A DNA stretch of 64,000 nt, from assembly GCA_031292215.1 (NCBI GenBank), contig JARLHO010000112.1:62001-126000 (forward strand). Direction: 5' to 3'. The stretch's first letter is position 1; each line of letters opens with the position of its first letter. The DNA comes from Syntrophobacteraceae bacterium (GTDB taxonomy: Bacteria > Desulfobacterota > Syntrophobacteria > Syntrophobacterales > Syntrophobacteraceae). Of this stretch, positions 46,626 to 63,909 are shown piece by piece. Position numbers and translations under genes: made by a program. The notes under the pieces are model-generated. The model searched no databases. It worked only from the letters and a program-made list of their open reading frames with translations, and was not told the origin of the DNA.

Positions 46626-48901
46626 CCTTTTTCCTCCGTTGCTTTTTCCACCATCTCCAAAACCTTGTCCGGCGTTAGCGGCATTTCTTTGAATAAAACC
46701 CCCGTAGCGTTCGTAAGAGCACAGGCTACGGCGCTGTAGGCGTTCATGCGAATTGCGATGCCCCCTTCCTTGGCGCCGAAAGGCCCGACAGGATCACCGG
46801 ATTCCACAATGATAGCGTCTATTTCAGGCATATCGCAGGCCAGGGGGACCTTGTATTCCAAAAGATCGGGGTTTAGCAGGTGGCCCCCGTCCCAGAGGTT
46901 TCCCTCGGTTATGGCCGCCACCCCCGCCTGCTGGACCGAGCCTTCTATCTGCCCTTCAACCGCCATTGGGTTTATGGCGCGTCCGCAATCGTGGGCTGCC
47001 GTGAAACGGGGCATGGTGATCATGCCCGTTTCGGAGTCGACCGCAATCTCGGCTACGGAGGTGGCATAGGAGAAGGTCCCCGCCATCTGACCCCAGGGTC
47101 GGGAGATCCACTCTCTTTCCAGGTCGATGTCCGGGAAGAAAGTGCCAGTGGCCACGACCGGCTCCGCCCTGGCGAAGGCCTCCCGCACGACCCACGCAAT
47201 GGGCATCTTCTTTTCCGGATTGGCAACGGAATAGACGAGCCGGTTTTTTAGCGCGATGTCCGTTTCGGAAACGGCAAGTTTTTCCGCCGCAATGGCCACG
47301 ATCTGCTTTCGCGCCTTCTCACAGGCGATCTTGACCGCATTTGTGCTCACAAAGGCAGCCGCTTGCGAGTAGGCCCCCGGGTCGAGGTTGGTGATTTCCG
47401 TGTCGGCATTTACCAGGTTGATGTCCTCCATGGGGACGCCCAGGATTTCCGAAGCGGCCTGGATCACCATGGATTCGTTTCCTTGCCCGTTGTCCACAAC
47501 GCCGGTCACAAGGGTTACGTATCCGTCATCGTTTATCTTGAGGTAACACGAAGAGCCCGAGCGAAACCCCATGGGGAAACCGCACATAATGGCAACGCAC
47601 CCCATGCCGATGCCCTCAAGCTTTTGCGGTTTGGCCCATCGTTTTTGGAAGTCGGTCTTCCGCGCGGTTGTCTCGATTGTCTCTTGTAAGCCGCAACTGG
47701 TTATCCTGGATTTGGTCGCGGTCATCTCACCGGCTCTCAGTCCGTTTTTTAGACGTATCTCCACCGGGTCCAGCCCCAGTTCTTTGGCCATCAAATCCAT
47801 CTGGGCTTCGTTGCCGGCGAGGAAAGCCCTGCCGTGGCAGCCGTACATTCCCCGTATCCCCTTGTTGGTAATGATCCGGTAGCCGTTGTAGCGGATGTTG
47901 GGGAAACGGTAGCATTCCTCGTAGACATAAAAAGGGACAGAGGTGGCTATGGGGCCTGTCGAGCTGTAGGCGCCTCCGTCGTAGATCGCGCGCAAGTCCT
48001 TGGCCACGATGGTTCCGTCCTTACTCATGGCTGTTTTGATCGTGGCGCTCATGTCGTGGATCTGCCTGGAACTCGTGGCGTTTTCCTCGCGTGAGAGGAC
48101 GAGCTTTACGGGTCTATCGGCCTTGATGGACAAAAGCGAGGCAACCAGATCCGCTGGGGCCACCTCCGAGCGCCCCCCGAATGCGCCCCCGGAATTTATG
48201 TGACGCACACGCACCTTGTTTAAGGGCATTTTGAGAAGGTTGGCGAGCGCTTTGGCGCGAACGTGGGGGCCGGCGTTGGGCATCCACAGATCCAGGAAGC
48301 CGTTTTGGAAAGAAGCAACTACCGCGTAAGGCTCCATCATGGCATAGGCCTCGCCGGCGGCCTTGAAGGTATCCTCCCGGACGAGGAAGGCGCTTTCCAT
48401 GGCCTTGTCGACATCCCCGACGTCGATATGGACGTGAATGTTGATGTTGTTTTTGTACTGCTCGTGGATGATCGGGGCACCCTCCCGCATCGCTTCGAGG
48501 GGATCGAAGACCGAGGGCAGGGGCTCGTAGTCGACTCTTATGCGGGAAAGGGCTTCCAGGGCCGTTTCCTCATCGACGGCTGCGACCGCCGCCACATCCT
48601 CGCCAATGTAGCGCACCTTGTCGGTTGGGAGCATGGCGTGGTCCTGGGTGTAGCGAAAGACACCCCATTTGATCCCCGAGCCGTCAAAACCGCTGATTGC
48701 GGCCTTGACCCCGGGTACCTTACGCGCACCGTCAAGGTCTATTGCGAGAATCTTCGCATGAGGATGGGGACTTCTTAGCACCTTGGCCACGAGCATGTTG
48801 GGCATCTTCAAATCGGCGGTGTAGCGCGCCCGGCCGGTTACCTTGGCCAAAGAATCGCTGCGTACGACTCTTTTTCCCACAATATTCAGATTATCCTCCA
48901 C
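46622..48901 (-). CDS. Molybdopterin-binding large subunit of a hydroxylase, second trio
   Basis: This 759-residue subunit has the typical start IVGKRVVRSDSLAKVTGRA, the GGAFGGRSEVAPADLVASL motif near residue 240 and a late molybdopterin segment. Near the C-terminus, where family members have G-A-K-x-x-G-E with the catalytic Glu, it has G-A-K-E-G-G-I: the catalytic Glu position is Ile. This suggests changed chemistry. It starts with GTG after AGGAGG. The trio with HcrB-like and Fe-S subunits follows HyuB by 44 bases. The substrate is unknown, but an aromatic CoA ester or a heterocycle is likely by context. Confidence 0.85.
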   Translation of the reverse strand: MEDNLNIVGKRVVRSDSLAKVTGRARYTADLKMPNMLVAKVLRSPHPHAKILAIDLDGARKVPGVKAAISGFDGSGIKWGVFRYTQDHAMLPTDKVRYIGEDVAAVAAVDEETALEALSRIRVDYEPLPSVFDPLEAMREGAPIIHEQYKNNINIHVHIDVGDVDKAMESAFLVREDTFKAAGEAYAMMEPYAVVASFQNGFLDLWMPNAGPHVRAKALANLLKMPLNKVRVRHINSGGAFGGRSEVAPADLVASLLSIKADRPVKLVLSREENATSSRQIHDMSATIKTAMSKDGTIVAKDLRAIYDGGAYSSTGPIATSVPFYVYEECYRFPNIRYNGYRIITNKGIRGMYGCHGRAFLAGNEAQMDLMAKELGLDPVEIRLKNGLRAGEMTATKSRITSCGLQETIETTARKTDFQKRWAKPQKLEGIGMGCVAIMCGFPMGFRSGSSCYLKINDDGYVTLVTGVVDNGQGNESMVIQAASEILGVPMEDINLVNADTEITNLDPGAYSQAAAFVSTNAVKIACEKARKQIVAIAAEKLAVSETDIALKNRLVYSVANPEKKMPIAWVVREAFARAEPVVATGTFFPDIDLEREWISRPWGQMAGTFSYATSVAEIAVDSETGMITMPRFTAAHDCGRAINPMAVEGQIEGSVQQAGVAAITEGNLWDGGHLLNPDLLEYKVPLACDMPEIDAIIVESGDPVGPFGAKEGGIAIRMNAYSAVACALTNATGVLFKEMPLTPDKVLEMVEKATEEKG

Positions 48902-48945: not shown

Positions 48946-50664
48946 TTATCCGCGGGATTGCCGCCGGGAGCGGGTCGCTTCCAGGTCGACCTCGCCGGTC
49001 ACCGTATCGATCACCACCCCGTAGAGCGTCTGGGCGCTTTCCGGGGTTACGTACCCGTCGAGTACGTCCTCGGCGACAAGTTGGGGGTCACGCTCGAAGG
49101 GGTCCCCGTAGCCCCCGCCGCCGGCGGCGTCCATGGTCACCAGGTCGCCGGGTTGGAGCCGGGTCAAGCCGTAAGGGTCACCGGCCCTGTCATTTACCAG
49201 GAACTTCGCCCTTGCCCCGCTCATTCCCCCGAAGAGTCCTTCGGGCGGGTAGCGCAATCTGCCCGACTGGATTCCCAGGTTTACCGGGGGGCGAGGGGCA
49301 TGGGCATCATCGGGTATGCGGAAGACGACCCGCCTGCCAAGACCTCCCTTAAATTTTCCCGGCCCCCCCGAATCGGCAAGAAGCTCCCGTTTTTCCACGA
49401 TAAGCGGGGTGTCGCTTTCGAAGATTTCCGCCGGGGTATTGGCCCCGTTGGCGGGAAAGATGTACACGTGGTTTCCGTCGCCCTGCGCGCTTGCCCCCAT
49501 CCCGCCGCCCCGGATGATGACCGAGTGGAACGGGCGGCCGTCCTGGCGCCTGCCGTAGAAGACATTCATTGTCGCCGGGGTCCCCCCGCTGCCGGCCAGC
49601 ACACGGTGGGGAAGGGCGGGCGCCATGGCGCGGTAGACGATCTCGGTTATGAAGTGGCCTATTTGCATACGGGCGGCCACTGCGGCAGGAAACCTGCAGT
49701 TGACGACGCTGCCTTCGGGGGCTTTTAAGGAAATCGGCAGGGCGCACCCTTCGTTGTTGGGGATTTCCGGGTCGAACATGCTCTTCATGGCCATGAAGAC
49801 ATAGGCGTAGGTGAAATTGAAGACGACATTTCCTCCCCAGTCAACCTGGGGGGAAGAGCCGTCCAAATCCACCTCGATGGAGTCGCCCTTTACGTGCACG
49901 GCGACCTTTATCACCACGTCGTCCTTGCCTTCGGTCTGTTCGACAATCCCTTCGGCGCGATATACCAGGTCGGGAACCCTGGCGATTGCCTGCCGCATGC
50001 TCTGTTCGGTGCGCTCGATTATCTCATCGGCCAGGTCGTCGAGCCCGTCCATTTCGTTTTCTTCGAGCATCCGGCAGATTTTTTGCGCGCAGACATGGTT
50101 TGCGGCTATCTGGGAGCGGATGTCTCCGATCACTTCGTCGGGGGTTCGAACGTTCCAGCGAATCGTCTCGAGCAGGGCCTCATTTGCCACGCCCCCGTCG
50201 TAGAGCTTGACAAAAGGAATGAACAGCCCGTCTTCAAAGACATCATGGTTATCGGAGGAGACCCTCCCGCCGATGTCGGAGTGATGAAAAACGCAGGCAG
50301 TAAAAGCTGTCAGGCGCTCCCGGTAGAAGATGGGGCTCATCACGCACACGTCGTTTAGATGTCCGGCAAGCGCCCAGGGATCGTTTGTAATGAATACGTC
50401 TGCGGGCCGGCAGTCCCCCTCGGCCAGCGCGGCCACAAGCTTTTTTATCCCCAGGGCCATCGCCCCCGACTGGCCGGGTGTGGCGAAGGAGCCCTGCGCC
50501 AGTTCCCGTCCTCTCCGGTCGGTAAACATACAGGTATAGTCATGTGCGTCTCGTAGCAGACTGGAAAAGGCCGTCCTGGCAACGGCGCCGTCGGCTTCGT
50601 CGACAATGGAGATAAGCCTTCGCCAAAGTATTTCCAGGGTTACCGGGTCGAACCTGCCGCCCAT
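48946..50664 (-). CDS. Hydantoinase B/oxoprolinase-family subunit
   Basis: A 572-residue HyuB-family protein that starts with FDPVTLEILWRRLISIVDE and contains the motifs TPGQSGAMALGIK and VFITNDPWALAGHLNDV. It is the metal-binding partner of HyuA. Together these enzymes split cyclic amides (hydantoins, 5-oxoproline) with ATP or act as acetone-carboxylase-like enzymes. In the anaerobic indoleacetate route, such a pair opens the lactam ring after C2 hydroxylation. Here they lie between two molybdenum hydroxylase trios, which supports this reading. The gap to the HyuA gene is 47 bases. Confidence 0.88.
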   Translation of the reverse strand: MGGRFDPVTLEILWRRLISIVDEADGAVARTAFSSLLRDAHDYTCMFTDRRGRELAQGSFATPGQSGAMALGIKKLVAALAEGDCRPADVFITNDPWALAGHLNDVCVMSPIFYRERLTAFTACVFHHSDIGGRVSSDNHDVFEDGLFIPFVKLYDGGVANEALLETIRWNVRTPDEVIGDIRSQIAANHVCAQKICRMLEENEMDGLDDLADEIIERTEQSMRQAIARVPDLVYRAEGIVEQTEGKDDVVIKVAVHVKGDSIEVDLDGSSPQVDWGGNVVFNFTYAYVFMAMKSMFDPEIPNNEGCALPISLKAPEGSVVNCRFPAAVAARMQIGHFITEIVYRAMAPALPHRVLAGSGGTPATMNVFYGRRQDGRPFHSVIIRGGGMGASAQGDGNHVYIFPANGANTPAEIFESDTPLIVEKRELLADSGGPGKFKGGLGRRVVFRIPDDAHAPRPPVNLGIQSGRLRYPPEGLFGGMSGARAKFLVNDRAGDPYGLTRLQPGDLVTMDAAGGGGYGDPFERDPQLVAEDVLDGYVTPESAQTLYGVVIDTVTGEVDLEATRSRRQSRG

Positions 50665-50711: not shown

Positions 50712-52841
50712 TTAGAATCGATTCGCGTTTGCCGGCTGAGAATCGTTTTTTGCCACCAGCATATCGATCCACAAAAAGCCGAACCCATCTACGCAAACCT
50801 CGGCATCCTCACTGACGATAACGGTCGATTCGCGTTCCTCGATTATCGCCGGGCCGGAAAATTTGGCCCCCTCGAAGAGTTTGTAGCGATCATAGACGGT
50901 GTGCGGGATAAAGTCTTTTCTGCGGGCGCAGTAGGCTGGCCTTTGGCCCTTCACGGCCTCGGAGAGCGACGAAAAACCACGTTCCAGCCGGGAAAGAGTA
51001 AGAAGGCGTTCAGGAAGGGCTGCCCGCACCTTGAAATTTATGAACTCCACGGGGCTCTCGGCATAGGTCCGTCCGTAAAGCGCGGCATAGGTCCGGTCGA
51101 AACAGTTTCGAATTTCTTCGGGTTTTACCTCGGCCATCGAATTTTGGGCGATCACCACATTGGTTTCCGACCCCTGACCGATAAAGCGCATATCCACCGA
51201 CCTTTCAAACCTGATGTCCCCCCCGGCGCCGGTTTTTGCCAGGGCCTTGGCCCCTTCTTCCTCCATCTGCCCGAAGAGCTTTTCGATCTGTTCAAAGTCC
51301 GCCCCAACGAGGGCTACCTTGTGGCTGCGCACCAAATCGAAGGCTCTCGGGGCGGTGAAAAAACCGAGCGCCGACCCCACTCCCGCATTGGGCGGCACAA
51401 GCAACCGGGGGGCCCCGAGTTTTTGTGCCAGTCCGCAGGCATGTACCGGCCCTGCGCCGCCGAAAGCGACAATGGTGGCCAGCCCGGGGTTTCCGCCTTT
51501 TTCCGCGATATGGGTCCTGGCGGCGGCGGCCATGGTTTCGTTTATCAGGTCGTGAATACCCCAGACCGCCTGAATGAAGGAGATGCCCAGGGGGGCGGCT
51601 ATGCGCTCGGCGATTCCGCGCCGGGCGGCTTCCCTGTCGAGCTTTATCTCCCCGCCGAGAAAATAGTTTTCGTCGAGGTAACCCAGGAGCAGGTCGGCGT
51701 CGGTGACCGTGGGGGCCGTACCGCCTCTTCCGTAGCAGATCGGCCCGGGGTCGGCGGAGGAACTCTGAGGCCCCACCTGAAGTGTGCCAAGCCGGCTGAC
51801 CTTTGCGATGCTGCCGCCCCCCGCGCCAATCTCCATCAAATCGACCACCGGCACCTGGATGGTCAACCCGCTTCCCTTCATGAACCTTTGCACGCGGCCC
51901 ACTTCAAAGGTGGGCACCACGCCGACCACCCCCCGCTGAATGAGGCAGGATTTTGCGGTCGTTCCCCCCATGTCGAAGCAGAACATCTCCGGGATGCCGA
52001 AGAGTTTCCCGTAGTACTGCCCGGAGATGACCGCCGCGGTCGGCCCGGATTCGATGATCCTTACGGGGAACCGCGAGGCCGTGTCAACCGAGGTGATGCC
52101 CCCGCTTGAGAGCATGATGAAAAGTTTGGCTTTGACCCCGATGGACTCCAGCCGCCTTTCCAGCCCTGCGAGATATCTTCCGGTCAACGGCTTGACGTAA
52201 GCATTGGTCACGGTGGTGCTGGTTCTCTCATACTCCTTTATCTGTGGAAGCACTTCAAAGGAGATCGACGTGGAGACACCGGGGGCCTCTTGCTCGATTA
52301 TCTTCTTGATAAGCCATTCATGGTCCGGATTTTCGAAGGAGTTGAGAAGGCACACCGCGATCGACTCGACCCCGAGGGCGAGCAGTTCCCTCACCACCCT
52401 TCGCGCATCGTCGGCATCCAGAGGCCTTAGCACCACGCCATCGCTTCGAACCCGCTCCTTTACTTCGACCCGCAACCTCCTGGGGACCAGGGGCTTGGGG
52501 AATTCGGCGAAAATGTCATAGGGCGCGTAGCGCATTTCACGCCCCAGCTCAAGGACGTCGCGAAAGCCTTCCGTGGTTATAAGGCCGGTCTTTGCCCCCT
52601 TTCGCTCTATGATCGAATTGATCACAAGCGTGGTGCCGTGAATGACTTCGTCTAGCATCGGCACATAGCCGGGGACCTTTTTGGTCAGCTCCAGGATTCC
52701 CTGCTCGACGGCATCGGAGGGGTCGGCCGGCGTGGTCAGGCATTTGTTTATGTGAATCTCGCCCGTGCGGTCGTTTATAAGGACGAAGTCGGTGAACGTC
52801 CCCCCTATGTCGCAACCCAGACGATAGCACTTATCCGACAT
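50712..52841 (-). CDS. Hydantoinase A/oxoprolinase-family ATP-dependent subunit
   Basis: The 709-residue protein has the phosphate-binding G-C-D-I-G-G-T-F-T-D-F near residues 9-19 of the actin/Hsp70 superfamily, the second phosphate site FCFDMGGTTAKSCL (about 293-306) and a typical HyuA C-terminal part. It phosphorylates and thereby opens a cyclic amide. The start overlaps the stop region of the upstream Mo subunit gene by 11 bases. ACX-type carboxylases have a similar subunit, but no gamma subunit (about 170 residues) is nearby, so a lactam hydrolase is more likely. Confidence 0.9.
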   Translation of the reverse strand: MSDKCYRLGCDIGGTFTDFVLINDRTGEIHINKCLTTPADPSDAVEQGILELTKKVPGYVPMLDEVIHGTTLVINSIIERKGAKTGLITTEGFRDVLELGREMRYAPYDIFAEFPKPLVPRRLRVEVKERVRSDGVVLRPLDADDARRVVRELLALGVESIAVCLLNSFENPDHEWLIKKIIEQEAPGVSTSISFEVLPQIKEYERTSTTVTNAYVKPLTGRYLAGLERRLESIGVKAKLFIMLSSGGITSVDTASRFPVRIIESGPTAAVISGQYYGKLFGIPEMFCFDMGGTTAKSCLIQRGVVGVVPTFEVGRVQRFMKGSGLTIQVPVVDLMEIGAGGGSIAKVSRLGTLQVGPQSSSADPGPICYGRGGTAPTVTDADLLLGYLDENYFLGGEIKLDREAARRGIAERIAAPLGISFIQAVWGIHDLINETMAAAARTHIAEKGGNPGLATIVAFGGAGPVHACGLAQKLGAPRLLVPPNAGVGSALGFFTAPRAFDLVRSHKVALVGADFEQIEKLFGQMEEEGAKALAKTGAGGDIRFERSVDMRFIGQGSETNVVIAQNSMAEVKPEEIRNCFDRTYAALYGRTYAESPVEFINFKVRAALPERLLTLSRLERGFSSLSEAVKGQRPAYCARRKDFIPHTVYDRYKLFEGAKFSGPAIIEERESTVIVSEDAEVCVDGFGFLWIDMLVAKNDSQPANANRF

Positions 52842-55242
52842 TGGAGCCTCCTGATTTGCGTTTTCTAAGAGCCGCGAGCACCTTCTCCGGCGTAATGGGC
52901 AACGACTTGATCCTCACTCCGACAGCATCGAAGACGGCGTTGGCGATCGCCGGGGCGGTGGGCACCAGTCCCGGCTCCCCGACTCCCTTGGCCCCGAAAG
53001 GCCCCTTCGGGTCGTCGGTCTCGATGCACTCGATGTGGATGGGAAAGTCCACGTCGGGCGCGGCTAAAATCTTGTAATCGAGAAAGTTGGGGTTAAGACT
53101 TCTGCCCCGGTCCGTTTTGTATTCTTCACAGAGCGCGTAGCCAAGACCCTGGACTATGGCGCCGTAAAGCTGACCTTTGAGGGTCTGCGGGTTAAGGACC
53201 TTTCCCACGTCGTGGGCGGCCGCAAACTTTAGGACGGTGACCTTTCCGGTCTCTTCGTCCACTTCCACCTCGGCGCCCTGCACCCCGAAGACGTAAGCCG
53301 CCGATATATTGCCCCGGCAGGTTTTGGGGTCCAGCATTTCGTGGCAGGGGTCATAGAAGGCTTCGGTGACTATAATGGTCCCCTGTTCCCTGTAGTGGGC
53401 CTCTCGCAGCAGTTCTTCCAGGGGGACCCTCAGAAGCGGGTCGTCGGGCCGGTCTTTTAGGAAGACGAAGTTGTGCCTGAGATCGAAATCGGAGACCGAG
53501 AGCGTGCCGATAGAATCCAGATCGGGCCCCTCAAACCCCGGCTCCTTTCTCGCCCGTTTCTTCATGGCGGCCGACACCCTGGCGATGAAATGTTCGGCGG
53601 CCAGTTCGAAGACCTTCTGTCTTGCCTTGTCGGCGGCAAGAATCGCGGCGTTGCAGGCGGTGAAAGCCCCTCGGCTTGCGTGTGTGCCCACGTCCCAGGG
53701 ACAGATGGCGGTGTCCCCGATTATGACTGTCACCATGTCGGGGGAAACCCCCAGGGCTTCGGCGGTTGCCGCGGTGAGCACCGAGGTGAAGCCCTGCCCC
53801 ATTTCCACGGCGCCCGAAGTAATCGACACGTGGCCAAAATCGTCGAGCTTCATGATAACGCCTGTCCCGTCGGAGCGGTACACTCTCGCCGCCCCGCCGA
53901 CATGGAACAGGGAAGCCATCCCTACCCCCCGGCCACGATTTCTGCCTTTTCCCCTCTTCTCCCCCCAGTCCAGTTCGCGCGCCACCGACTCCAGGCAATC
54001 CTTGAAGCCGCAAGTGGTAATCTTTAGGCCCATGGGGGTCGTCTCATCGGCGACATTGGCGTTTGTCATGCGGAATTGGTACGGGTCGATCCCCGCCTTT
54101 TGGGCAAGCTGATCGAGGTTGCTCTCGATCGCCCAGGCGGCCTGAGGGTTCCCGTAGCCGCGCATCGCCTGGCAATAGGTATTGTTGGTGTAGACGATAG
54201 TGGTTTCGAAATGGATATTGGGGACCCTGTAGAGGGAGGAGACGGGCAGCATCATGACACTTGGCGTGGTGGCGCCCCAGGAGGTATAGGCGCCATTATC
54301 GAGGACCATTCGCATCTGCCTGAAGGTGAGCCTGCCCTCCGAATCGCAGCCCTGGATTATATGGGCCCTGGTGGACTGTCGCGGCGATAGAGCGGTGAAT
54401 TCCTCGTGGCGGTCGAACACTATCTTGACCGGTTTGCCCGTTGTGTATGCCAGAAGGATGGCGATATATTCATAGGCGTGAGTATCGAGGCCGGTGCCGA
54501 AAGAGCCTCCGACCGCGGGGACTATCACCCTGGTTCGCCTGCCCTGGAGGCCCATGTCCGCGAGGGCGGCATTGAAGTCGTTTTGCGCAAGAAACGGGAT
54601 TTGAGTCTTGGTGTGGATGATCAGGTTGTTCATCAGATCGAATTCGGCGATGCACCCTGCCGTGCCCATGCAGGACTGCAGAATCAGGGGGGTGTCATAA
54701 TAATCTTCGACAACCACGGCCGAGGCATCCCTGGCTTTGTCAACATCGCCCGCCGTGAACTTCCACGGCACGGGGACAATGTTATCCTTCCTCGGCCTTT
54801 CTTTGGGGTCGAGTTCGTGGATAAGCGTCGCATCGGGGCGCAGCGCCTCCTCGACGCTGAACACACAGGGCAGTTCTTCATACTCGACCTCGATCAGCTC
54901 CACGGCTTCGGCCGCCGTCTCCGCATCGACTGCGGCCACTGCGGCCACCTCGTCTCGAAACTGCCGCACCTTGTCCTTTTTTAAGGCAAAGTTGTCCTTT
55001 ATGAACCCGATTCGTATCTGCGGCGTGTTGTAGCCGGTTATGACCGCCCGGACCCCGGGGAGTTTCTCGGCGCGCGAGGTGTCGATATGCTTGATCCTGG
55101 CGTGGGCGTATTCGCTGAATTTGATCTTGCCGTGCAGCATCCCGGGCCTTACCAGGTCATGAATGTAGAGAGCCCTTCCCGTCGCCTTGTCCGGTCCGTC
55201 GGGCCTCGGGTGCGTCTTCCCGATGTAGTGAAATTCACTCAT
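52831..55242 (-). CDS. Molybdopterin-binding large subunit of a hydroxylase, first trio
   Basis: The protein of about 803 residues starts MSEFHYIGKTHPRPDGPDK, the family pattern, with AVGGSFGTGLDTHAYEYIA, the molybdopterin-contacting GAVEMGQGF, and a normal catalytic Glu in G-A-K-G-V-G-E-P near the C-terminus. It should hydroxylate a ring carbon next to nitrogen, such as C2 of an indole. The ATG at 55242 was chosen since it gives the usual start; the frame reaches up to 55281. It overlaps the Fe-S subunit gene by eight bases and HyuA by eleven. Confidence 0.9.
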   Translation of the reverse strand: MSEFHYIGKTHPRPDGPDKATGRALYIHDLVRPGMLHGKIKFSEYAHARIKHIDTSRAEKLPGVRAVITGYNTPQIRIGFIKDNFALKKDKVRQFRDEVAAVAAVDAETAAEAVELIEVEYEELPCVFSVEEALRPDATLIHELDPKERPRKDNIVPVPWKFTAGDVDKARDASAVVVEDYYDTPLILQSCMGTAGCIAEFDLMNNLIIHTKTQIPFLAQNDFNAALADMGLQGRRTRVIVPAVGGSFGTGLDTHAYEYIAILLAYTTGKPVKIVFDRHEEFTALSPRQSTRAHIIQGCDSEGRLTFRQMRMVLDNGAYTSWGATTPSVMMLPVSSLYRVPNIHFETTIVYTNNTYCQAMRGYGNPQAAWAIESNLDQLAQKAGIDPYQFRMTNANVADETTPMGLKITTCGFKDCLESVARELDWGEKRGKGRNRGRGVGMASLFHVGGAARVYRSDGTGVIMKLDDFGHVSITSGAVEMGQGFTSVLTAATAEALGVSPDMVTVIIGDTAICPWDVGTHASRGAFTACNAAILAADKARQKVFELAAEHFIARVSAAMKKRARKEPGFEGPDLDSIGTLSVSDFDLRHNFVFLKDRPDDPLLRVPLEELLREAHYREQGTIIVTEAFYDPCHEMLDPKTCRGNISAAYVFGVQGAEVEVDEETGKVTVLKFAAAHDVGKVLNPQTLKGQLYGAIVQGLGYALCEEYKTDRGRSLNPNFLDYKILAAPDVDFPIHIECIETDDPKGPFGAKGVGEPGLVPTAPAIANAVFDAVGVRIKSLPITPEKVLAALRKRKSGGSNVG

Positions 55243-55714
55243 TTCCCTGTTCCTTTTCAGCGGCCTTTGCGATGCTCTCAATTATTTGAACATAGCCGGT
55301 GCAACGGCACAAATTGCCCGATATTCCCCGCCGGATCTCGTCGGCGCCGGGATGGGGGGTTTCGTCCAGAAGAGCTTTGGCGGACATGATCATCCCCGGG
55401 GTGCAGTAGCCGCATTGAATCCCGCCGTTTTCCACGAAGGACTTCTGGAGTGTGTGAAGCTGGTTTCTCGCACCCATTAGCCCTTCGATGGTCGTCACTT
55501 TCCTCCCCTCGATTTCGAAGGCGGGATAGAGGCAGGAATCAACGCTCGCCCCGTCGACCAGCACGGTGCAGGCGCCGCATTCCCCTTCTCCGCAGCCGTA
55601 TTTGGTCCCGGTCAGGTGCAAAGTGTCCCGCAAGACCTCGAGCAGCATCTGGTGGGACTCGGCTTTAACCGCTACGGCGTGGCCGTTTACAGTGAATTGA
55701 ATCCTTTTTTTCAT
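55235..55714 (-). CDS. [2Fe-2S] small subunit of the first hydroxylase trio
   Basis: A 159-residue protein with Cys41, 46, 49 and 61 for the plant-type cluster and the later C-G-Y-C ... C-R-C-T-G-Y set for the second [2Fe-2S] cluster. It overlaps both neighbours (four and eight bases), so the three subunits are translated together. The trio has the CoxM-CoxS-CoxL order FAD, Fe-S, Mo, while the second trio has Mo, FAD, Fe-S, so they did not come from a simple recent duplication. Confidence 0.92.
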   Translation of the reverse strand: MKKRIQFTVNGHAVAVKAESHQMLLEVLRDTLHLTGTKYGCGEGECGACTVLVDGASVDSCLYPAFEIEGRKVTTIEGLMGARNQLHTLQKSFVENGGIQCGYCTPGMIMSAKALLDETPHPGADEIRRGISGNLCRCTGYVQIIESIAKAAEKEQGNE

Positions 55715-56595
55715 CCTAAGACCTCCTGCCCGTCCGGGTACACTTTCCGTAAAGCCTGCTTGATCGCGCGGCCGACAATCACCCCGGTCACCACCCTGCG
55801 GTAATCCTCGGAGGCGCGCACGTCGGTAATGGGGCTTATCTCGCTCTCGACCATCGCGCCAACCCTGCCGAGCAGCTCTTTATCGATTTTTTGGCCTTCG
55901 ATCGCGGATTCGGTAGCCTTCAAACGCAGCGGGACCGGGGCGACTGCTCCCACCGCAAGGCGGCATTTGCGGCACATCCCGTCTTCCATGACCAACAAGG
56001 CAGCGGCGTTGGTGAGGGCAATGTCCTGGTTGACTCGTACAGACTTTAGAAAAGCCATCCCCGTCTTGTCCGGCAAAGAGGGGATGGTGATGCGGGTGAT
56101 GATTTCCAGGGGGGCGCAGCAGGTTCGGCCCGGTCCCTGAAAAAACTCGCTGATGGGGACATCTCGTTTCCCGCCGGGTCCCTCGAGGGTGAGCCAGGCT
56201 TCAAGGGCCAAAAGAGGGGGAGCGCAGTCCGCGGACGGGGCAGCGTTTGCAAGGTTTCCCCCCACGGTCGCGACGTTTCGGACCTGGGGGTTTGCCAGCG
56301 CCACGGCGGCTTGGCTAAGAGCGGGCAAATTCTTTGTGAAAACGGGCTCCCTTTCGAGTTCCCGAATGAGCGTCATGCTTCCTACAGTCAGCGCTCCGGC
56401 CCCGTCCACCTCGATTCCCCGCAGCTCCTCCAGCCCCCTTAGCGAGATCAGCGCCTCTGGGCTCGCCACCCCCTTTTTTATGCGCACGATGATGTCCGTG
56501 CCGCCTGCGATATAGCGGGCCAGGCCGTTATATTTTTCCATCAGCCGGAAGGCTTCCTTAAGGGTTTGAGGCCTGTGATAATTATACTTCTTCAT
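55711..56595 (-). CDS. FAD-binding subunit of the first hydroxylase trio (CoxM-like)
   Basis: The 294-residue protein has ARYIAGGTDIIVRIKKG near residues 25-41, NVATVGGNLANAAPSADCAPPL near 106-128 as two FAD contacts, and the usual C-terminal domain. Unlike the subunit at 45681 it has no Cys-rich insertion, so electrons would go from the two [2Fe-2S] clusters to FAD and then to an outside acceptor, as in xanthine dehydrogenase or CO dehydrogenase. It follows the CoA ligase gene by 18 bases. Confidence 0.9.
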   Translation of the reverse strand: MKKYNYHRPQTLKEAFRLMEKYNGLARYIAGGTDIIVRIKKGVASPEALISLRGLEELRGIEVDGAGALTVGSMTLIRELEREPVFTKNLPALSQAAVALANPQVRNVATVGGNLANAAPSADCAPPLLALEAWLTLEGPGGKRDVPISEFFQGPGRTCCAPLEIITRITIPSLPDKTGMAFLKSVRVNQDIALTNAAALLVMEDGMCRKCRLAVGAVAPVPLRLKATESAIEGQKIDKELLGRVGAMVESEISPITDVRASEDYRRVVTGVIVGRAIKQALRKVYPDGQEVLG

Positions 56596-56613: not shown

Positions 56614-57906
56614 TCAGTTTCTGTTGTCCAAGACCCGCCGGCTCTTACGTTCGGAGCGAGGCAAAGAACCGTAGTCGACGACCTGCACGGTGGCGCTCAC
56701 CAGGATCGAATGTTTGATCTGCGAGGCGATTTTGCGGCTAAGGTTTTCGTTTTGAGACGCGTCCACGCTCTGGTCTCTTTCTGCTTTTACCGTCATATAC
56801 TCCTTGCCGTCGGATCCCCTTTCGAGCACGATCTGGTATTCGCAACTGATGCCCTCGGTGGCGGACAGGATTTTATCGATCGTGCGAGGATACATGTTCA
56901 CGCCCCGAAAGATGATCATGTCGTCGGTTCTGCCAAGCAGCCGGTCGTGCCTTGGAAGAGGAGACCCGCAGGGGCACTCGCCGGGCAGAAGGCGCGTCAG
57001 GTCGCGGGTCCGGTACCTGATTAGCGGGACCCCTTCCTTTCTTAGCGAGGTCACCACCATTTCGCCTATTTCGCCTTCGGGCGAGGGCGCGAGGGTTTCG
57101 GGGTCGACCGTTTCAAGGATATAGTAGTCGGCCCAGTAGTGAATTCCTGTGTGATGAACGCAGTCAAGGCCCGTTCCCGGCCCGTAGAGTTCGGTCATGC
57201 CCGGGATATCGAACATGTGCTCCAACCCCAGCAGTTCCCGCATACGCGCCCGCATGGCTTCGCTCGACCGCTCGGAGCCAAAGATCATTTTCTTTAGTTT
57301 TATCTTGTCCCCGATTCCCCTGCGGTTGACCTCTTCGGCCAGCAGCAGCCCCATCGAGGCCGTGCAGCACATCACGGTGCTTTCAAAATCGACCAGGAAC
57401 TGGCACTGCATATCCATGTTGCCCGGCCCCACGGGGACTGCCATGGCGCCAAACTTTTCACAGCCCAGTTGAAAGCCAACGCCTGCTGTCCACACGCCGT
57501 AGCCCACCGCTATCTGGACCCGGTCCTCACGGCTGAGTTCGGCCATCTCAAAGCAGCGGGCGAAAAAGTATGCCCAGTCGTCGATGTCTTTTTGCGTATA
57601 GCACAGTACCTTCCTCTTGCCGGTTGTACCCGATGAGGCATGGATGCGGACAACCTTGTCAAAGGGCACGCAGACAAGAGGGAAAGGGTAGCCTTCCTGG
57701 AGATCGTCGGCAGTGGTGAACGGCAGATGGCGCAGGTCGTCTAGCGAGTGTATGTCCTGCGGGCCGATACCGGCGTCAAGGAGTCGTTTTTGGTAGCGCG
57801 CAGAGCCTTTGCAGGCATGGCCAACGGTCCATTGCAGCCCTTTTAGCTGAAGGTTTTGCAACTCTTCCGCCGTCTTATATTCGGGCATGAAACGATTTGT
57901 TCTCAT
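56614..57906 (-). CDS. Aryl-CoA ligase (phenylacetate-CoA ligase family)
   Basis: A 430-residue AMP-forming ligase of the PaaK type. Motifs are the P-loop S-S-G-T-T-G-K (about residues 92-98), the FGSERSSEAMRARM region in the middle, YRTRDLTRLLPGECPCG near 307-323, and the Lys-bearing C-terminal ATP lid (MIIFRGVNMYPRTIDKIL). It activates an aryl-acetic acid or succinate with CoA. In the anaerobic indoleacetate pathway a PaaK-type ligase has this part. It stands between the mutase and Mo-hydroxylase genes. PaaK itself would be expected with a phenylacetate oxidation set, which is missing here. Confidence 0.87.
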   Translation of the reverse strand: MRTNRFMPEYKTAEELQNLQLKGLQWTVGHACKGSARYQKRLLDAGIGPQDIHSLDDLRHLPFTTADDLQEGYPFPLVCVPFDKVVRIHASSGTTGKRKVLCYTQKDIDDWAYFFARCFEMAELSREDRVQIAVGYGVWTAGVGFQLGCEKFGAMAVPVGPGNMDMQCQFLVDFESTVMCCTASMGLLLAEEVNRRGIGDKIKLKKMIFGSERSSEAMRARMRELLGLEHMFDIPGMTELYGPGTGLDCVHHTGIHYWADYYILETVDPETLAPSPEGEIGEMVVTSLRKEGVPLIRYRTRDLTRLLPGECPCGSPLPRHDRLLGRTDDMIIFRGVNMYPRTIDKILSATEGISCEYQIVLERGSDGKEYMTVKAERDQSVDASQNENLSRKIASQIKHSILVSATVQVVDYGSLPRSERKSRRVLDNRN

Positions 57907-57936: not shown

Positions 57937-59565
57937 TTAAAAAATAGAAGGTTCAATGTGTTCGCCGAAGACCTGGCGAAACACATCGGCCATTTCACCC
58001 ACTGTTGCGTAGCTTTTGCACGCCTCGACCAGGGGCGCCATGACATTTTTCTTTTCCCTGGCCGCCTTCTCCACGGCCCTTAGCGCTTCCTTTACACCCT
58101 TGGCGTCCCTGGTCCTGCGCAACTCCTGCAACCGTTCTGTTTGAATCTGCGGCCATTCTTCATTGTACTGGTGGAGCTCGACCTCCATGTCGACTCCGTC
58201 GGTGTATTTGTTTACCCCGACCTTGGTCACCAGACCCTTCTGGAGCCTTTTTTCCCATTCATAGGCCTGCCTTGCGACCTCCGCCTGGACATAGCCCGAG
58301 GAGACCGCCCGGACCATTCCGCCGATTTTGGCGACCTTGTCCATTTCTTCCAAAATCTTCTGCTCCATCTGCAGGGTCAGGGTTTCCATGAAATAGGAGC
58401 CGGCCAGAGGATCGACCGTATCCCGGAGCCCGACTTCTTCGAGCAGGATCTGGAAGGTCCGCAAAGACAGCAGCGCCGCCCGTTCGGTGGGAATCGTGTA
58501 CGCCTCGTCAAACGAACAAAGAGCGGTCGTCTGAGCTCCCGACAGGGCGGCGGCCAGGGCGTAATAGGCCCCTCGCATGATATTGTTTTCCGGCTGCTGC
58601 TTTGTCATGCCCGAACCGCCCCCGCCGAAAATTCCCCTCAGAAAAAGCGCCTTTTTGTCCTGGACGTCGTAGCGCTCTTTGAGCAACTTTGCCCACAGCT
58701 TACGGGCGGCCCGAAATTTGGCCACCGTTTCCCACAGGTTTCCATAGATATTGAGGTTGAACGAAAACCTGCCCACGAAGTCCTCGGCCCGATAGCCCCG
58801 CGCCACCACGTTGTCGATATAGGCGAAGGCGATCATCAGAGCGTAGGAGATTTCCTGGGCCGGCGTACATCCCGATTCCCTGATGTGGTAGCCGCACACC
58901 GAGACCGGATTACACTTGGGCAGCTCCTTCATGGCGTATTCGATAGTGTCCCCGATGAGGCGCACTGCCGGCTCAACCGGATAGACCCAGGCCCCTCTTC
59001 CCACCATCTCCTTTAGAATATCGTTTTGCGGCGTGGCCGAAATTTCGGTCCTGCTGTAGCCGAATTTTTCCGCCACCGCCTGGTACATCGCGAGCATGAC
59101 GCAGGCCACGGCGTTGATGGTCAGCCCCACGCCGATCCGGTCCAGGGGAATGTCTTCGAACGCGATTTCAAAATCGCGCAAAGAGTCCACGGCCATTCCA
59201 ACCCGGCCCACTTCCCCTTCGGCCATCGGGGAATCGGAATCGAATCCCATCTGCGTGGGCAGGTCGAAGGCGACGTTTAAGCCCGTCTGCCCATGGGCGA
59301 TCATAAGTTTAAATCTCTCATTGGTCTGCTCGGGAGTGCCAAAGCCGGTATACTGTCGGGTCGTCCAATCCCGGCTCCGGTATCCAAGAGGATGTATGCC
59401 GCGAGTGAACGGAAATTCTCCGGGGGCGCCCAAGTCGTTGTCATAAGAAAAGCCCGCCTGCTCCAGGTCTTCGGGAGTGTAGACCGGTTTTATCTCGATG
59501 CCGGAATTGAGCACGACTTTGTCTACACCGTTCTTTTCATTCTTTATATAGGTTGCTACTCCCAT
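57937..59565 (-). CDS. B12-dependent acyl-CoA mutase, large subunit
   Basis: A 542-residue protein of the methylmalonyl-CoA mutase large-subunit family. It has the substrate-site segment T-R-G-I-H-P-L-G-Y with the conserved Tyr, W-T-T-R-Q-Y-T-G-F-G, and ATPQNDILKEMVGRGAW, where the Arg that holds the substrate's free carboxylate is kept (isobutyryl-CoA mutases have Gln) but the following Asn is Gly. The length lacks the B12 domain, which is encoded separately at 59575. The kept Arg points to a dicarboxylic acyl-CoA, and the Gly could make room for a larger group such as aminobenzyl. This fits a 2-aminophenylsuccinyl-CoA mutase rather than plain methylmalonyl-CoA mutase. Confidence 0.88.
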   Translation of the reverse strand: MGVATYIKNEKNGVDKVVLNSGIEIKPVYTPEDLEQAGFSYDNDLGAPGEFPFTRGIHPLGYRSRDWTTRQYTGFGTPEQTNERFKLMIAHGQTGLNVAFDLPTQMGFDSDSPMAEGEVGRVGMAVDSLRDFEIAFEDIPLDRIGVGLTINAVACVMLAMYQAVAEKFGYSRTEISATPQNDILKEMVGRGAWVYPVEPAVRLIGDTIEYAMKELPKCNPVSVCGYHIRESGCTPAQEISYALMIAFAYIDNVVARGYRAEDFVGRFSFNLNIYGNLWETVAKFRAARKLWAKLLKERYDVQDKKALFLRGIFGGGGSGMTKQQPENNIMRGAYYALAAALSGAQTTALCSFDEAYTIPTERAALLSLRTFQILLEEVGLRDTVDPLAGSYFMETLTLQMEQKILEEMDKVAKIGGMVRAVSSGYVQAEVARQAYEWEKRLQKGLVTKVGVNKYTDGVDMEVELHQYNEEWPQIQTERLQELRRTRDAKGVKEALRAVEKAAREKKNVMAPLVEACKSYATVGEMADVFRQVFGEHIEPSIF

Positions 59566-59574: not shown

Positions 59575-59985
59575 TTAGGTGGATTGGTGACCAGTCACTG
59601 CTCGTTTGATGAAATCGACGATCTCGTCAAAAGGAGTTCCCCCCGGGAAGATCCCTTCCACCCCCAACTCTTTCATGGCCGGAAAGTCCCGGGCGGGGAT
59701 GACGCCCCCCACGACGACGTGGATATCGTCCAACCCCTGCTCCCGGATCATGGCCATCAGTTTGCGGCTAATAGGGACATGGGCGCCGGACATGATCGAG
59801 AGCCCTATGACGTCTACGTCCTCCTGGACCGCCTGGTTTACGATGCTTTGCACTGTTTGGTGCAGACCCGTATAGATAACCTCCATACCCGCCTCTTTCA
59901 TGGCGTGGGCCACTACCTTCGCGCCCCTGTCATGACCGTCGAGGCCTGGTTTGGCCAAAAGGACCCTGATTTTTCTTCCCGCCAT
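59575..59985 (-). CDS. B12-binding small subunit of the acyl-CoA mutase
   Basis: The 136-residue protein has the cobalamin-binding motif D-G-H-D-R-G near residues 16-21 (with the His that becomes the lower ligand), the S-I-M-S-G-A-H segment and the GGVIPARDF segment. It is the stand-alone form of the C-terminal domain of methylmalonyl-CoA mutase. The gene is nine bases upstream of the large subunit gene. Its length and motifs leave little doubt about the role. Confidence 0.93.
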   Translation of the reverse strand: MAGRKIRVLLAKPGLDGHDRGAKVVAHAMKEAGMEVIYTGLHQTVQSIVNQAVQEDVDVIGLSIMSGAHVPISRKLMAMIREQGLDDIHVVVGGVIPARDFPAMKELGVEGIFPGGTPFDEIVDFIKRAVTGHQST

Positions 59986-60027: not shown

Positions 60028-60729
60028 TTACTCACAGAGATCGAAATGGCGCAAAATCACCTCTTTGCCTCTGAGGATGTGTTCGCGAACCAGCTTCTCG
60101 ACCTCGTCGGCATCGCGTCTTCGGATGTGGGCGATCATCAGCTTGTGATCTTCGTTGCTTAGCCGCGCCATCTCTTCGAGGCTCAGCAAGACCTTTCGAA
60201 AACGATATACCGGATCTCGGAGTTCGTTGATCAACCGGATCAGTTTCGGACTTCGGCTAAGTCCGTAGAGTAGATCGTGAAATTCGGTGTTGATCAGCGT
60301 TAATTCCTCGATCCGGTCCTCATCGAGGCAGCGCTGGTATTGGTTGATCTTTTGTTCGAGCGGCAGCAGTTCCGTCTCTTTATGCATCAGGGTCGCAACT
60401 CTTGCCGCGTAGCTCTCCAGTACGCTTCGAATGCCAAACGTTTCCTCTATGTCCTGTCGTCTCAGCCCGGTAACGAAGAAGCCGCCGCCCGGAAAACGCT
60501 CGAGCAGCCCCTCGCGCTCCAATTTGTGAATGGCTTCCCGCACCGGTGTGCGACTGATGCCAAGGGCGGCTGCGACATTGATTTCAACGAGATGGCTCTG
60601 CGGCGGGAAATCCCCTCTAACGACCGCCTGCTTGAGCTTCTCGTAGGCGGTTTGCCCGAGGGATTTTTTCGGCGGCAAGGACTTTAGCCCGCCGAGCAGA
60701 CCAGCGCCGGTCGTCGATTGCCTGCTCAT
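60028..60729 (-). CDS. GntR-family regulator (FadR/FCD type)
   Basis: A 233-residue regulator. The N-terminal winged helix-turn-helix (about residues 20-90; SHLVEINVAAALGISRTPVREAI) is followed by an all-helical FCD ligand domain (about 100-225) with the usual Asp/His metal residues (EFHDLLY and the late DHKLMIAHI). It likely responds to an acyl-CoA or aromatic acid of the pathway. It is located between the acyl-CoA dehydrogenase gene and the mutase genes, in the same direction and three bases after the former's stop, so it would control its own operon. Confidence 0.88.
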   Translation of the reverse strand: MSRQSTTGAGLLGGLKSLPPKKSLGQTAYEKLKQAVVRGDFPPQSHLVEINVAAALGISRTPVREAIHKLEREGLLERFPGGGFFVTGLRRQDIEETFGIRSVLESYAARVATLMHKETELLPLEQKINQYQRCLDEDRIEELTLINTEFHDLLYGLSRSPKLIRLINELRDPVYRFRKVLLSLEEMARLSNEDHKLMIAHIRRRDADEVEKLVREHILRGKEVILRHFDLCE

Positions 60730-60732: not shown

Positions 60733-61866
60733 TTAAAGTCCCGCCCACTTGGCGATGTTGGTCTGCAGAATTTCATGGGTTCCGCCTCCGTAGAGCAGAA
60801 ACCGGGTATCCCGGTAATATCTCTGGGGCGAGTATTCCATCGAGTACGCATAGGCGCCGAAGATGCGGGTAGAAAGGTCTGCGGCCCGGCAAGCGGCTTC
60901 GGTGGCAAAATACTTGGCCATCGAGGCTTCGGCCAAACAGGGCAGCTTGTCGTCGACCATGCGGGCCGCCTTGTAGGTGAGCAGGCGGGAGGCTTCCAGG
61001 TCCACGGCCATGTTGGCGATTTTCGCCTGAATGAGCTGATATTCTCCGATGGTTTTCCCGAACTGGGCCCGCTCGCGGGCATAGCGGATAGAGTCGTTTA
61101 GGGCCGCCCTCTGGAGGCCGACGGCCAGGGCGGCGGTCATGGTTCGAATTTCGGCCAAAATCGAGAGCAGGTTGGTCATGCCCTGTCCCTCCGCGCCCAG
61201 CAGGTGATCGAGCGGAACAAAACAATCCTTGAACGCAATTTCGCAGATTTTTGTGTTCCTGGTCCCTAAAAGGTCGAATGGTTTTCCGCGGGAAAGCCCC
61301 GGTGTGTCTGCCGGGACAAAGAAAAAATTGAGCCCCTTGAATTTCTTCTCAGGGTTGGTCTGGCACAGGACCGTGTAAAAATCGGCAACCGGTCCGTTGG
61401 TGACCCAGGTTTTCATTCCGTTTATGATAAAACCGCCCGCGGTTGGAACCGCCTGGGTGGAGGCATTGCCGAGGTCGGATCCGGCCTCCGGTTCGGTCAG
61501 GCAGAAGCAGGCGACTTTTTCGCCCCTCATTGCCGGGTGGAAAAACTTCTCCTTGAGTTCCTCGCTGCCGTAGCGGAACAAAAAATTGGTCCCCATCAGC
61601 GCCTGCATGGCCGAAGTCGCCGCCAGGCTCATCAGCCCCCGCGCCAGTTCCTCGCAGACGGTGCAAAATAGGACGCAGTTTCCCCCCGCGCCCCCCTTGG
61701 CCTTCGGATACCGTATCGCGAAGACCCCCATGCGGCCAAGCTCTTCAAACAGCTCCCTTGGAAACTCGCCCGTCGCGTCGAGTTCGTGCGCCTTCGGGAC
61801 CACCTCGTTATCCACGAACCTTGCCATGCTTTCCCTGATTAAGTTTTGGGCGTTCGACCTGATCAT
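60733..61866 (-). CDS. Acyl-CoA dehydrogenase, variant without the usual catalytic Glu
   Basis: A 377-residue FAD enzyme with the family motifs CFCLTEPEAGSDLG (about residues 121-134), NGMKTWVTNGPVADFY, RAQFGKTIGEYQLIQ and the C-terminal flavin segment. The place of the catalytic Glu in Y-E-G-T is Gly (Y-G-G-G-T). The alternate base site of isovaleryl and long-chain enzymes is also not Glu (A-E-I-R, with Glu one residue earlier). A decarboxylating dehydrogenase does not need an alpha-proton base, so the substrate could be a malonyl-type CoA ester made by the mutase. ATG 61866 has GGAGG upstream; GTG 61878 is the other choice. Confidence 0.88.
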   Translation of the reverse strand: MIRSNAQNLIRESMARFVDNEVVPKAHELDATGEFPRELFEELGRMGVFAIRYPKAKGGAGGNCVLFCTVCEELARGLMSLAATSAMQALMGTNFLFRYGSEELKEKFFHPAMRGEKVACFCLTEPEAGSDLGNASTQAVPTAGGFIINGMKTWVTNGPVADFYTVLCQTNPEKKFKGLNFFFVPADTPGLSRGKPFDLLGTRNTKICEIAFKDCFVPLDHLLGAEGQGMTNLLSILAEIRTMTAALAVGLQRAALNDSIRYARERAQFGKTIGEYQLIQAKIANMAVDLEASRLLTYKAARMVDDKLPCLAEASMAKYFATEAACRAADLSTRIFGAYAYSMEYSPQRYYRDTRFLLYGGGTHEILQTNIAKWAGL

Positions 61867-61885: not shown

Positions 61886-63070
61886 CTACAGGCCTCTTTT
61901 TAGCTGCCTGACGAGTTCCGGGATCACTTCGCGAAGGTCTCCCCGGATACCCCAGTCGGCGACCTGAAAGATCGGCGCCCGAGGGTCCTTGTTTATGGCG
62001 AGCACGTAGCGGGAATTCAACATTCCGGCCCTGTGCTGGATGGCGCCCGAAATGCCGCAGGCGATATAGAGTTCGGGCCGAACCGACTGGCCTGTCTGGC
62101 CAACCTGCCGGTCTGCGGGTATCCAGCCTTCCTCGACCGCGACACGGGTTCCGGCCACGGCGCCGTCTACGATTTCAGCCAGTTCTTCGAGCAACCTGAA
62201 GCCCCCGGCGTCCCCCAGCCCCCTGCCGCCGGCAACGATCACCTTGGCCTCGCAAAGCTTCACTGCGTCCTTTTTTTCCCTTACGGTCTCCAGCAGCTTG
62301 GCGGCGCAACTCCTTTCGCTCACCCAAACGGGGACTGTGACCACACGGCCCGCGTTTTCGGGCCGCTCGACGGCTTCCATGACACCGGGCCGCACGGTAG
62401 CCATCTGGGGACGGGAGTAACGGCTCACAATTGTCGCCATCACGTTTCCGCCAAAGGCCGGCCTGGTTTGAAGCAGGATTTTTTCGTCCGGGTCCACCTC
62501 GAGTTCGGTGCAGTCGGCGGTGAGCCCCGCCCCCACGCGCCGGGACACTCGCGGGGCCAGATCCCGTCCGAGATGAGAGGCGCTCATGAGAAAGACCCCC
62601 GGGCGATATTTTTCGATCATACCCTCCAGCACGTCGGTGTAGGGGAGGGTGCGGTAATGGGCGAGTTCTTCATGCTCGGCGAGATAGACCGTTCGGGCGC
62701 CGTACCGGATGAGGGTTTGCGCAAGGTGTGAGACGCCGTGGCCAACAAGCAGCGCGCAGACCTCCTGGTCGAGCACCTCCGCCAGTTGGCGCGCCTTGCC
62801 CAGCAATTCGAGCGTTCCATGACTCAGTTGGCCGTCACGCCGTTCGGCAAATACCCAGATTCCCTTCCAGTCGCTAAAATCCGGCACGGTCCGGGGCAAA
62901 ATATCGGACTTGAGGGCGCCCTGGCGGCACAACTCGATACAGGCGCCGCAGGAAGTGCAGCGGTCCAGCACCGAGGCCTTTTCCCCGGAAAACTCGAGCG
63001 CCCCGTAGGGACATCCCCTGAGGCAGCGTTTGCACCCGTTGCAAAGGTCCGCTTCAACCCAGACGGTCAT
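61886..63070 (-). CDS. etfA: Electron transfer flavoprotein alpha subunit with N-terminal ferredoxin domain
   Basis: A 394-residue protein. Residues 1-60 hold two 4Fe-4S motifs (C-x2-C-x2-C-x3-C-P near 10-20 and C-x2-C-x2-C-x3-C near 37-48). The remainder is EtfA, with its FAD-binding end AGGRGLGDAGGF, QVGQTGQSVRPELYIACGISGAIQH, and INKDPRAPIF. Ferredoxin-fused EtfA is known in anaerobes, including enzymes that bifurcate electrons to ferredoxin. It overlaps etfB by four bases and precedes the acyl-CoA dehydrogenase by about 19 bases, so it most probably takes its electrons. Confidence 0.92.
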   Translation of the reverse strand: MTVWVEADLCNGCKRCLRGCPYGALEFSGEKASVLDRCTSCGACIELCRQGALKSDILPRTVPDFSDWKGIWVFAERRDGQLSHGTLELLGKARQLAEVLDQEVCALLVGHGVSHLAQTLIRYGARTVYLAEHEELAHYRTLPYTDVLEGMIEKYRPGVFLMSASHLGRDLAPRVSRRVGAGLTADCTELEVDPDEKILLQTRPAFGGNVMATIVSRYSRPQMATVRPGVMEAVERPENAGRVVTVPVWVSERSCAAKLLETVREKKDAVKLCEAKVIVAGGRGLGDAGGFRLLEELAEIVDGAVAGTRVAVEEGWIPADRQVGQTGQSVRPELYIACGISGAIQHRAGMLNSRYVLAINKDPRAPIFQVADWGIRGDLREVIPELVRQLKRGL

Positions 63071-63909
63071 GATTTTTTTCCTTCCTGCCCCACAGCGCCG
63101 GCCTGAGCCCCGGGCAAGACCAGGTGTTTTTCCTGCAGTTTTTCAAGCAGGGTCCGCACAACTGTCCCTGTGTCGCCTTCGAGCATCTCCGTGCGCCTCC
63201 CGCCCTTCGGGGCAAAGGTCCTGATGACATGGGTAAGAGAGCCGGCCAAACCGACCTCGCCCGTCTTGGCCCCGATGTCGGCCGCGTTCCAGATTTGTAC
63301 GGGCGCCCGCTCCGCGCACGCATCGATCAGCCTGCCGATCGCGGGATAGCGGGTCCGGTTCATTTCCGCAATGACCGTCAAGACAGCGGGCAGGGGGCAT
63401 TGCACCATTTCATAGCCACCCTCGCCGCGCTTTTTGACCATGATGGTCCCGTCGTCCCGTGCGGCCTCGATATCACAGGCGTATGTGACCTGGGGCAGGC
63501 CGAGGTATTCCGCCACCTGGGGGCCGATCTGCGCCGTGTCACCATCTATGGCCTGCCTGCCGCAGAGGACGAGGTCGTATTTTGCGATTTTTTCGATGGC
63601 CTTGCCAAGGGTCGAGGAGGTGGCCCATGTGTCGGCTCCGGCAAAGGCGGAGTCGCTAAGCAGGATTCCTTCGTCTGCGCCCATGCCGATGGCTTCGGAG
63701 ACGATATCGACCGCCTGGGCCGGTCCCATGGACAAGGCGACGACTTTGCCTCCCTGCGCCTCCTTGAGGCGCACTGCGGCTTCCAGCGCGTGCCGGTCAT
63801 CCGGGTTCATGATGCTGCCGATGCCTTCCCGCAACAGGTGTCCTGTTTTTGGGTCCAGTTTCACCTCAGTGGAATCGGGCACCTGCTTGATCAAAACGAC
63901 AATGTCCAT
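63067..63909 (-). CDS. etfB: Electron transfer flavoprotein beta subunit
   Basis: A 280-residue EtfB with the start IVVLIKQVPDSTEVKLD, NPDDRHALEAAVRLKEA, and the nucleotide-binding loop DLVLCGRQAIDGDTAQIGPQ near residues 111-130, typical of the EtfB forms that bind FAD/NAD in bifurcating ETFs. It leads the minus-strand run, so a promoter may lie in 63910-64000 or beyond the window's edge; I cannot identify one. The ATG at 63909 follows GGGAG with nine bases between. Confidence 0.92.
   Translation of the reverse strand: MDIVVLIKQVPDSTEVKLDPKTGHLLREGIGSIMNPDDRHALEAAVRLKEAQGGKVVALSMGPAQAVDIVSEAIGMGADEGILLSDSAFAGADTWATSSTLGKAIEKIAKYDLVLCGRQAIDGDTAQIGPQVAEYLGLPQVTYACDIEAARDDGTIMVKKRGEGGYEMVQCPLPAVLTVIAEMNRTRYPAIGRLIDACAERAPVQIWNAADIGAKTGEVGLAGSLTHVIRTFAPKGGRRTEMLEGDTGTVVRTLLEKLQEKHLVLPGAQAGAVGQEGKKS

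Follow-up and report, generated by a model that had tools for sequence, protein, structure and literature searches.

A putative IaaF-type decarboxylating acyl-CoA dehydrogenase lacking both known catalytic glutamates, encoded in a predicted anaerobic indoleacetate degradation operon

We analysed a 64,000-nucleotide stretch of a Syntrophobacteraceae genome (hereafter the window) that carries a gene for an unusual acyl-CoA dehydrogenase. The open reading frame runs uninterrupted from its ATG on the minus strand and encodes 377 residues, with an in-frame GTG at 61878. Its product contains three acyl-CoA dehydrogenase Pfam domains, and the AlphaFold2 model (pLDDT 96) has the canonical fold, with Z values of 50-57 against many solved enzymes. 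The surrounding genes, from a CoA-transferase of the IaaL type to the second of two molybdenum enzymes, all lie on the minus strand and are separated by gaps of about 80 bases or less (Table 1).

Table 1. Positions of the operon genes and of the two motif sites in the window.
Feature	Position	Strand	Basis
Second Mo enzyme, [2Fe-2S] subunit	45211..45681	-	family models
Second Mo enzyme, FAD subunit, carrying a four-Cys insert like that of 4-hydroxybenzoyl-CoA reductase beta	45681..46625	-	four Cys aligned to 1rm6_B
Second Mo enzyme, large subunit, 4-hydroxybenzoyl-CoA-reductase-like	46622..48901	-	family models; beside iaa genes in L043, L169, L050, L171
Hydantoinase B-like subunit	48946..50664	-	28% to A. 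aromaticum
Hydantoinase A-like subunit, IaaC/E-type, proposed lactam ring opening	50712..52841	-	34% to A. aromaticum
Mo hydroxylase large subunit, proposed indole-ring oxidation	52831..55281	-	44% to A. aromaticum
Mo hydroxylase [2Fe-2S] subunit	55235..55714	-	50% to A. aromaticum
Mo hydroxylase FAD subunit	55711..56595	-	homologue in A. aromaticum iaa cluster
Phenylacetate-CoA-ligase-like enzyme, candidate for IaaB step	56614..57906	-	PaaK model 391 bits, below cut-off 646
Acyl-CoA mutase large subunit (IaaG/H-type), proposed (2-aminophenyl)succinyl-CoA to (2-aminobenzyl)malonyl-CoA	57937..59565	-	55% to A. aromaticum counterpart
Acyl-CoA mutase B12-binding small subunit (IaaG/H-type)	59575..59985	-	55% to A. 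aromaticum counterpart
GntR/FCD family transcriptional regulator	60028..60729	-	domain match
IaaF-type acyl-CoA dehydrogenase, proposed (2-aminobenzyl)malonyl-CoA dehydrogenase (decarboxylating), 377 aa	60733..61866	-	family and operon homology
Codons of Y359-G-G-G-T363, G361 replacing the catalytic Glu of Y-E-G-T	60778..60792	-	alignment
Codons of A238-E239-I240-R241, I240 at the isovaleryl/long-chain Glu site	61144..61155	-	alignment
EtfA fused at its N terminus to a 2x[4Fe-4S] ferredoxin domain, candidate electron acceptor	61886..63070	-	ETF, ETF_alpha, Fer4 domains; neighbouring gene in close relatives
EtfB	63067..63909	-	family models; adjacent in close relatives
IaaL-type family III CoA-transferase, 3' end; body beyond the window (contig C46:125991-127181)	63991..64000	-	38% to A. 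aromaticum homologue

Nine of these genes have counterparts in the indoleacetate (iaa) cluster of Aromatoleum aromaticum: those for hydantoinase A and B, the dehydrogenase, the two mutase subunits, the three Mo hydroxylase subunits and IaaL. No homologue of the window ligase was found in the 19.9-kb A. aromaticum region examined. The order IaaL, EtfB, EtfA, dehydrogenase, GntR regulator and mutase is common to close relatives of the window enzyme. The mutase type itself is well delimited, with 59-84% identity within the IaaG/H type against 47% or less to ordinary mutases.

The second Mo enzyme of the operon (45211-48901) recurs beside iaa genes at the four other loci named in Table 1; we speculate that it reductively deaminates 2-aminobenzoyl-CoA, the expected product of the pathway. 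Just past the window end, and divergent from the operon, a plus-strand gene (L039 7568-9256) encodes a ThDP enzyme resembling benzoylformate decarboxylase (648 bits with model NF005485, exceeding its cut-off) that possibly feeds arylacetate metabolism. Genes for a PrkA kinase, a DUF444 protein and SpoVR stand in a row at 3302-8116 of the window, a common conserved trio.

A sequence-only reading of the dehydrogenase gene had reported that Glu is missing from both known base positions and that the E of A-E-I-R is displaced by one residue from the helix site, and alignment bears out both observations. The C-terminal motif reads R355-F-L-L-Y359-G360-G361-G362-T363-H-E, and in ungapped HMMER alignments with 4n5f, 4m9a, 5ol2 and the rat short-chain enzyme 1jqi, G361 occupies the place of the catalytic Glu of Y-E-G-T. 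Y-G-G-G-T contains no insertion: the Tyr has moved by one position and all three residues of YEG are replaced by Gly. The helix motif reads L237-A238-E239-I240-R241. The isovaleryl-type Glu, which directly precedes the invariant Arg, aligns with I240 when two enzymes of the same genome (L005, LDIER; L008, MMYER) serve as guides, placing Glu239 one residue ahead of that site.

We compared both sites across 127 aligned acyl-CoA dehydrogenases, grouped by their identity to the window enzyme into 52 IaaF-type sequences (about 42% and above) and 75 others (below about 40%). This split was made after an initial inspection of the sites, and the counts describe the two groups and are no blind prediction. 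Neither site is acidic in any of the 52 IaaF-type sequences, and exactly one of the two is acidic in all 75 others. Position 361 is Gly in 52/52 IaaF-type sequences and Glu in 60 of the 75 others, while position 240 is Ile, Val or Ala in every IaaF-type sequence. That the helix site lacks an acid as well emerges from our alignment and goes beyond what PMC8360864 says of IaaF. The adjacent position 239 carries an acid in 51 of the 52 (48 Glu, 3 Asp; the remaining sequence, L061, has Lys) versus 7 of the 75. Within the window genome, the dehydrogenase described here is the only one of 15 that lacks both acids, and the other 14 keep one each. Given these counts, the double absence is systematic in the IaaF type and not a product of chance. 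It also offers a simple sequence marker for finding further family members, present here in 52/52 versus 0/75 sequences.

Among characterised enzymes, IaaF of A. aromaticum comes closest; it is the benzylmalonyl-CoA dehydrogenase (decarboxylating) that acts in the breakdown of indoleacetate (Schuhle et al. 2021, PMC8360864). This enzyme converts benzylmalonyl-CoA to cinnamoyl-CoA and CO2 by coupled oxidation and decarboxylation, uses some alkylmalonyl-CoAs slowly, neither makes nor uses phenylpropionyl-CoA, and does not reduce cinnamoyl-CoA or form a saturated product; a GGG motif is common to all IaaF (PMC8360864). A whole-genome search of the genus of Aromatoleum toluolicum gave a single family of matches at 47-49% identity, and two of these agree exactly with the gene-specific parts of both published primers, by which we recognised the gene of A. 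aromaticum EbN1. Its product is 47% identical to the window dehydrogenase over nearly the full length, and L-A-E-I-R and G-G-G-T occur in both. A scan of named genomes, which covered 80 loci from a restricted list, produced an A. toluolicum candidate (L109) that retains Glu and is of the ordinary kind, and the best-ranked match in the plasmid collection was only 41% identical to the window dehydrogenase.

In a phylogenetic tree, a single branch with an SH-aLRT support of 98 divides the 61 Glu-less sequences from the others. The Glu-less sequences still form one group when both motif regions are masked, with a support of 62, which makes the exact family boundary less firm than the place of the window protein in its own branch (17 rows, support 100). 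The sub-branch of the window protein is not that of the A. aromaticum enzyme, and the two may accordingly differ in substrate. Judged by its sequence, the window gene is a member of the IaaF family, a kind of enzyme whose chemistry has been known since 2021; to this our analysis contributes figures for the double absence, the conservation of the shifted acid (51/52) and the tight tie to the mutase described below. IaaF-type genes also occur on contigs (L058, L059, L061, L062, L063, L064) labelled, with the labels taken at face value, as Sphingomonadales, Rokubacteria, Planctomycetota, Flavobacteriales and Aminicenantes MAGs. Two loci (L057 and L170) carry tandem pairs of Glu-less dehydrogenase genes (45-48% identity) upstream of a different, shorter ETF. 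One nearest-neighbour sequence (L196, genome G142) falls just outside the IaaF group; it has GGG together with Asp in the helix base position (LVDDR) and is possibly an intermediate form.

The sequence-only reading had also pointed to the mutase of the operon as the maker of a malonyl-CoA-type substrate. The IaaG/H-type homology of the mutase agrees with this prediction, as does its distribution among 297 genomes drawn from the phylum. With thresholds of E <= 1e-100 for the dehydrogenase type (41 genomes) and E <= 1e-200 for the mutase type (57 genomes), the IaaF type was found in 38 of the 57 genomes with the mutase versus 3 of the 240 without it (Fisher p = 3.7e-30, a value inflated by related genomes). 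Among the 19 genomes with the mutase only, nine encode elsewhere a Glu-less IaaF type of greater divergence, another contains a fragment, and a further one is the G142 genome with GGG and an Asp at the helix site. A Glu-less enzyme was not found in eight or nine of the 57 mutase-bearing genomes, the majority of which are incomplete or have a cut contig. At two loci considered as mutase-less (L046 and L053), the mutase gene does lie on the contig, at a distance of about 13-15 kb. At four loci of one family (L172, L173, L175, L178), mutase and hydantoinase genes stand together with no dehydrogenase or ETF gene nearby, joined by the ligase in two of the four stretches read and, in the L173 operon, by a fused hydroxyacyl-CoA dehydrogenase/enoyl-CoA hydratase; each of these genomes has a diverged Glu-less dehydrogenase elsewhere.

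Taken together, homology and gene context make it very probable that the product of the window gene is a decarboxylating dehydrogenase of the IaaF family that depends on FAD, and that its operon serves the anaerobic degradation of indoleacetate (auxin). A decarboxylating dehydrogenase had been proposed from the motifs, and the 47% identity to A. aromaticum IaaF, the operon and the co-occurrence with the mutase lend this prediction support. From the sites, operon, family and co-occurrence that we observed, and the reaction known for the A. aromaticum enzyme, we infer the substrate, mechanism and electron acceptor in this organism as follows. The ligase would convert indole-3-acetic acid to indoleacetyl-CoA, the Mo hydroxylase would oxidise its ring, and the hydantoinase pair would open the ring to give (2-aminophenyl)succinyl-CoA. 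Once IaaL had shifted CoA from one carboxyl to the other, the B12 mutase would form (2-aminobenzyl)malonyl-CoA. In the dehydrogenase, CO2 would leave C2, its electron pair standing in for the usual alpha-proton, as a hydride passes from C3 to FAD, yielding 2-aminocinnamoyl-CoA. A catalytic Glu would not be needed, and the three Gly would provide space for the alpha-carboxylate. The reduced FAD would probably pass its electrons to the adjoining EtfBA. The idea that decarboxylation makes removal of the alpha-proton needless, raised in the earlier reading, coincides with the mechanism proposed for IaaF, in which proton abstraction is replaced by CO2 loss from C2 (PMC8360864). Such chemistry is unusual for an acyl-CoA dehydrogenase and was published in 2021.

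The same chemistry could also act on another alpha-carboxyacyl-CoA, derived from a different N-heteroaromatic compound or from an arylsuccinate. The genomes that encode relatives of 37-60% identity vary in their hydantoinases and ligases, the ligase of the operon is PaaK-like and only a candidate for the IaaB role, and A. aromaticum IaaF slowly uses some alkylmalonyl-CoAs (PMC8360864). Homologues of the Mo hydroxylase, the hydantoinase pair, IaaL, IaaGH and IaaF are, however, found together in the operon, and we regard a different substrate as unlikely. Less probable still is that the enzyme is a conventional dehydrogenase that does not decarboxylate and uses the shifted Glu239 as its alpha-proton base. 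An acid at this position is conserved in the IaaF type and uncommon elsewhere, as this explanation would have it, but A. aromaticum IaaF has the same AEIR and is inactive on phenylpropionyl-CoA (PMC8360864), and the relative with Lys would have no such base. The model argues in the same direction: residues 239 and 240 share an unbroken helix (229-265), in which residue 239 would point about 100 degrees away from 240, making it unlikely that both face the substrate. The operon mutase would, moreover, provide a malonyl-CoA-type product and no plain acyl-CoA. Least probable of all is operation in reverse or without oxidation, as an enoyl-CoA reductase or a plain decarboxylase: the acryloyl-CoA reductase AcrC is the highest-scoring NCBIfam model for the dehydrogenase, and EtfA and EtfB also score well against the electron-transfer subunits of that reductase, but at 300 bits the AcrC match stays below the cut-off of 640, which led us to reject that identity, the characterised IaaF shows neither cinnamoyl-CoA reduction nor a saturated product, and the operon is catabolic.

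Under our preferred assignment as a decarboxylating IaaF, the position of EtfBA directly upstream of the dehydrogenase bears on a published question, that of the electron acceptor of IaaF. A. aromaticum IaaF reacts with O2 and not with ETF, and an ETF paralogue lies inside the iaa operons of Desulfatiglans anilini, other sulfate reducers and Ferroglobus placidus (PMC8360864). The window genome has a dsrA gene that scores above the cut-off, as expected of a sulfate reducer, and the host is probably a sulfate-reducing bacterium. We tentatively suggest that the ferredoxin-fused EtfBA re-oxidises the dehydrogenase in this strict anaerobe and that E239 positions the substrate's alpha-carboxylate or 2-amino group, a combined proposal that we consider possible but doubtful. 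If true, the role of EtfBA would answer the question of IaaF's electron acceptor, and the window copy, with an ETF of its own, would let this question be tested directly.

Glutaryl-CoA dehydrogenase, a comparison that the earlier reading had suggested together with IaaF, shares the fold, FAD chemistry and predicted decarboxylation of the window dehydrogenase but keeps the YEG Glu, oxidises first and loses the gamma-carboxyl afterwards; the window enzyme has G361 in place of that Glu and scores 253 bits against the glutaryl-CoA model (NF045552, cut-off 470). Isovaleryl-CoA and long-chain acyl-CoA dehydrogenases likewise lack Glu at the C-terminal site but have it directly before the invariant Arg, where the window enzyme has I240, and we rejected this type on that ground. 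3-Sulfinopropionyl-CoA desulfinase also has the acyl-CoA dehydrogenase fold without the YEG Glu, but it removes a leaving group instead of a proton with no net oxidation, and this identity was rejected at an NCBIfam score of 222 against a cut-off of 600. The closest likeness is to IaaF of A. aromaticum EbN1 (ebA2055), which also has 377 residues, no Glu at either site (AEIR, GGGT), and mutase, hydantoinase, Mo hydroxylase and CoA transferase genes in its surroundings. The two differ in the residue at position 359 (Tyr in the window enzyme, Ile in A. aromaticum), in their ligases and in their redox context, with no ETF in the A. aromaticum cluster region examined but an adjoining EtfBA and a genome with dsrA for the window enzyme. 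For strict anaerobes, PMC8360864 names predicted IaaF from Desulfatiglans anilini, Ferroglobus placidus, NaphS2 and Desulfocarbo indianensis, and the dedicated ETF paralogue that it describes in the iaa operons of D. anilini, other sulfate reducers and F. placidus corresponds to the arrangement in the window operon.
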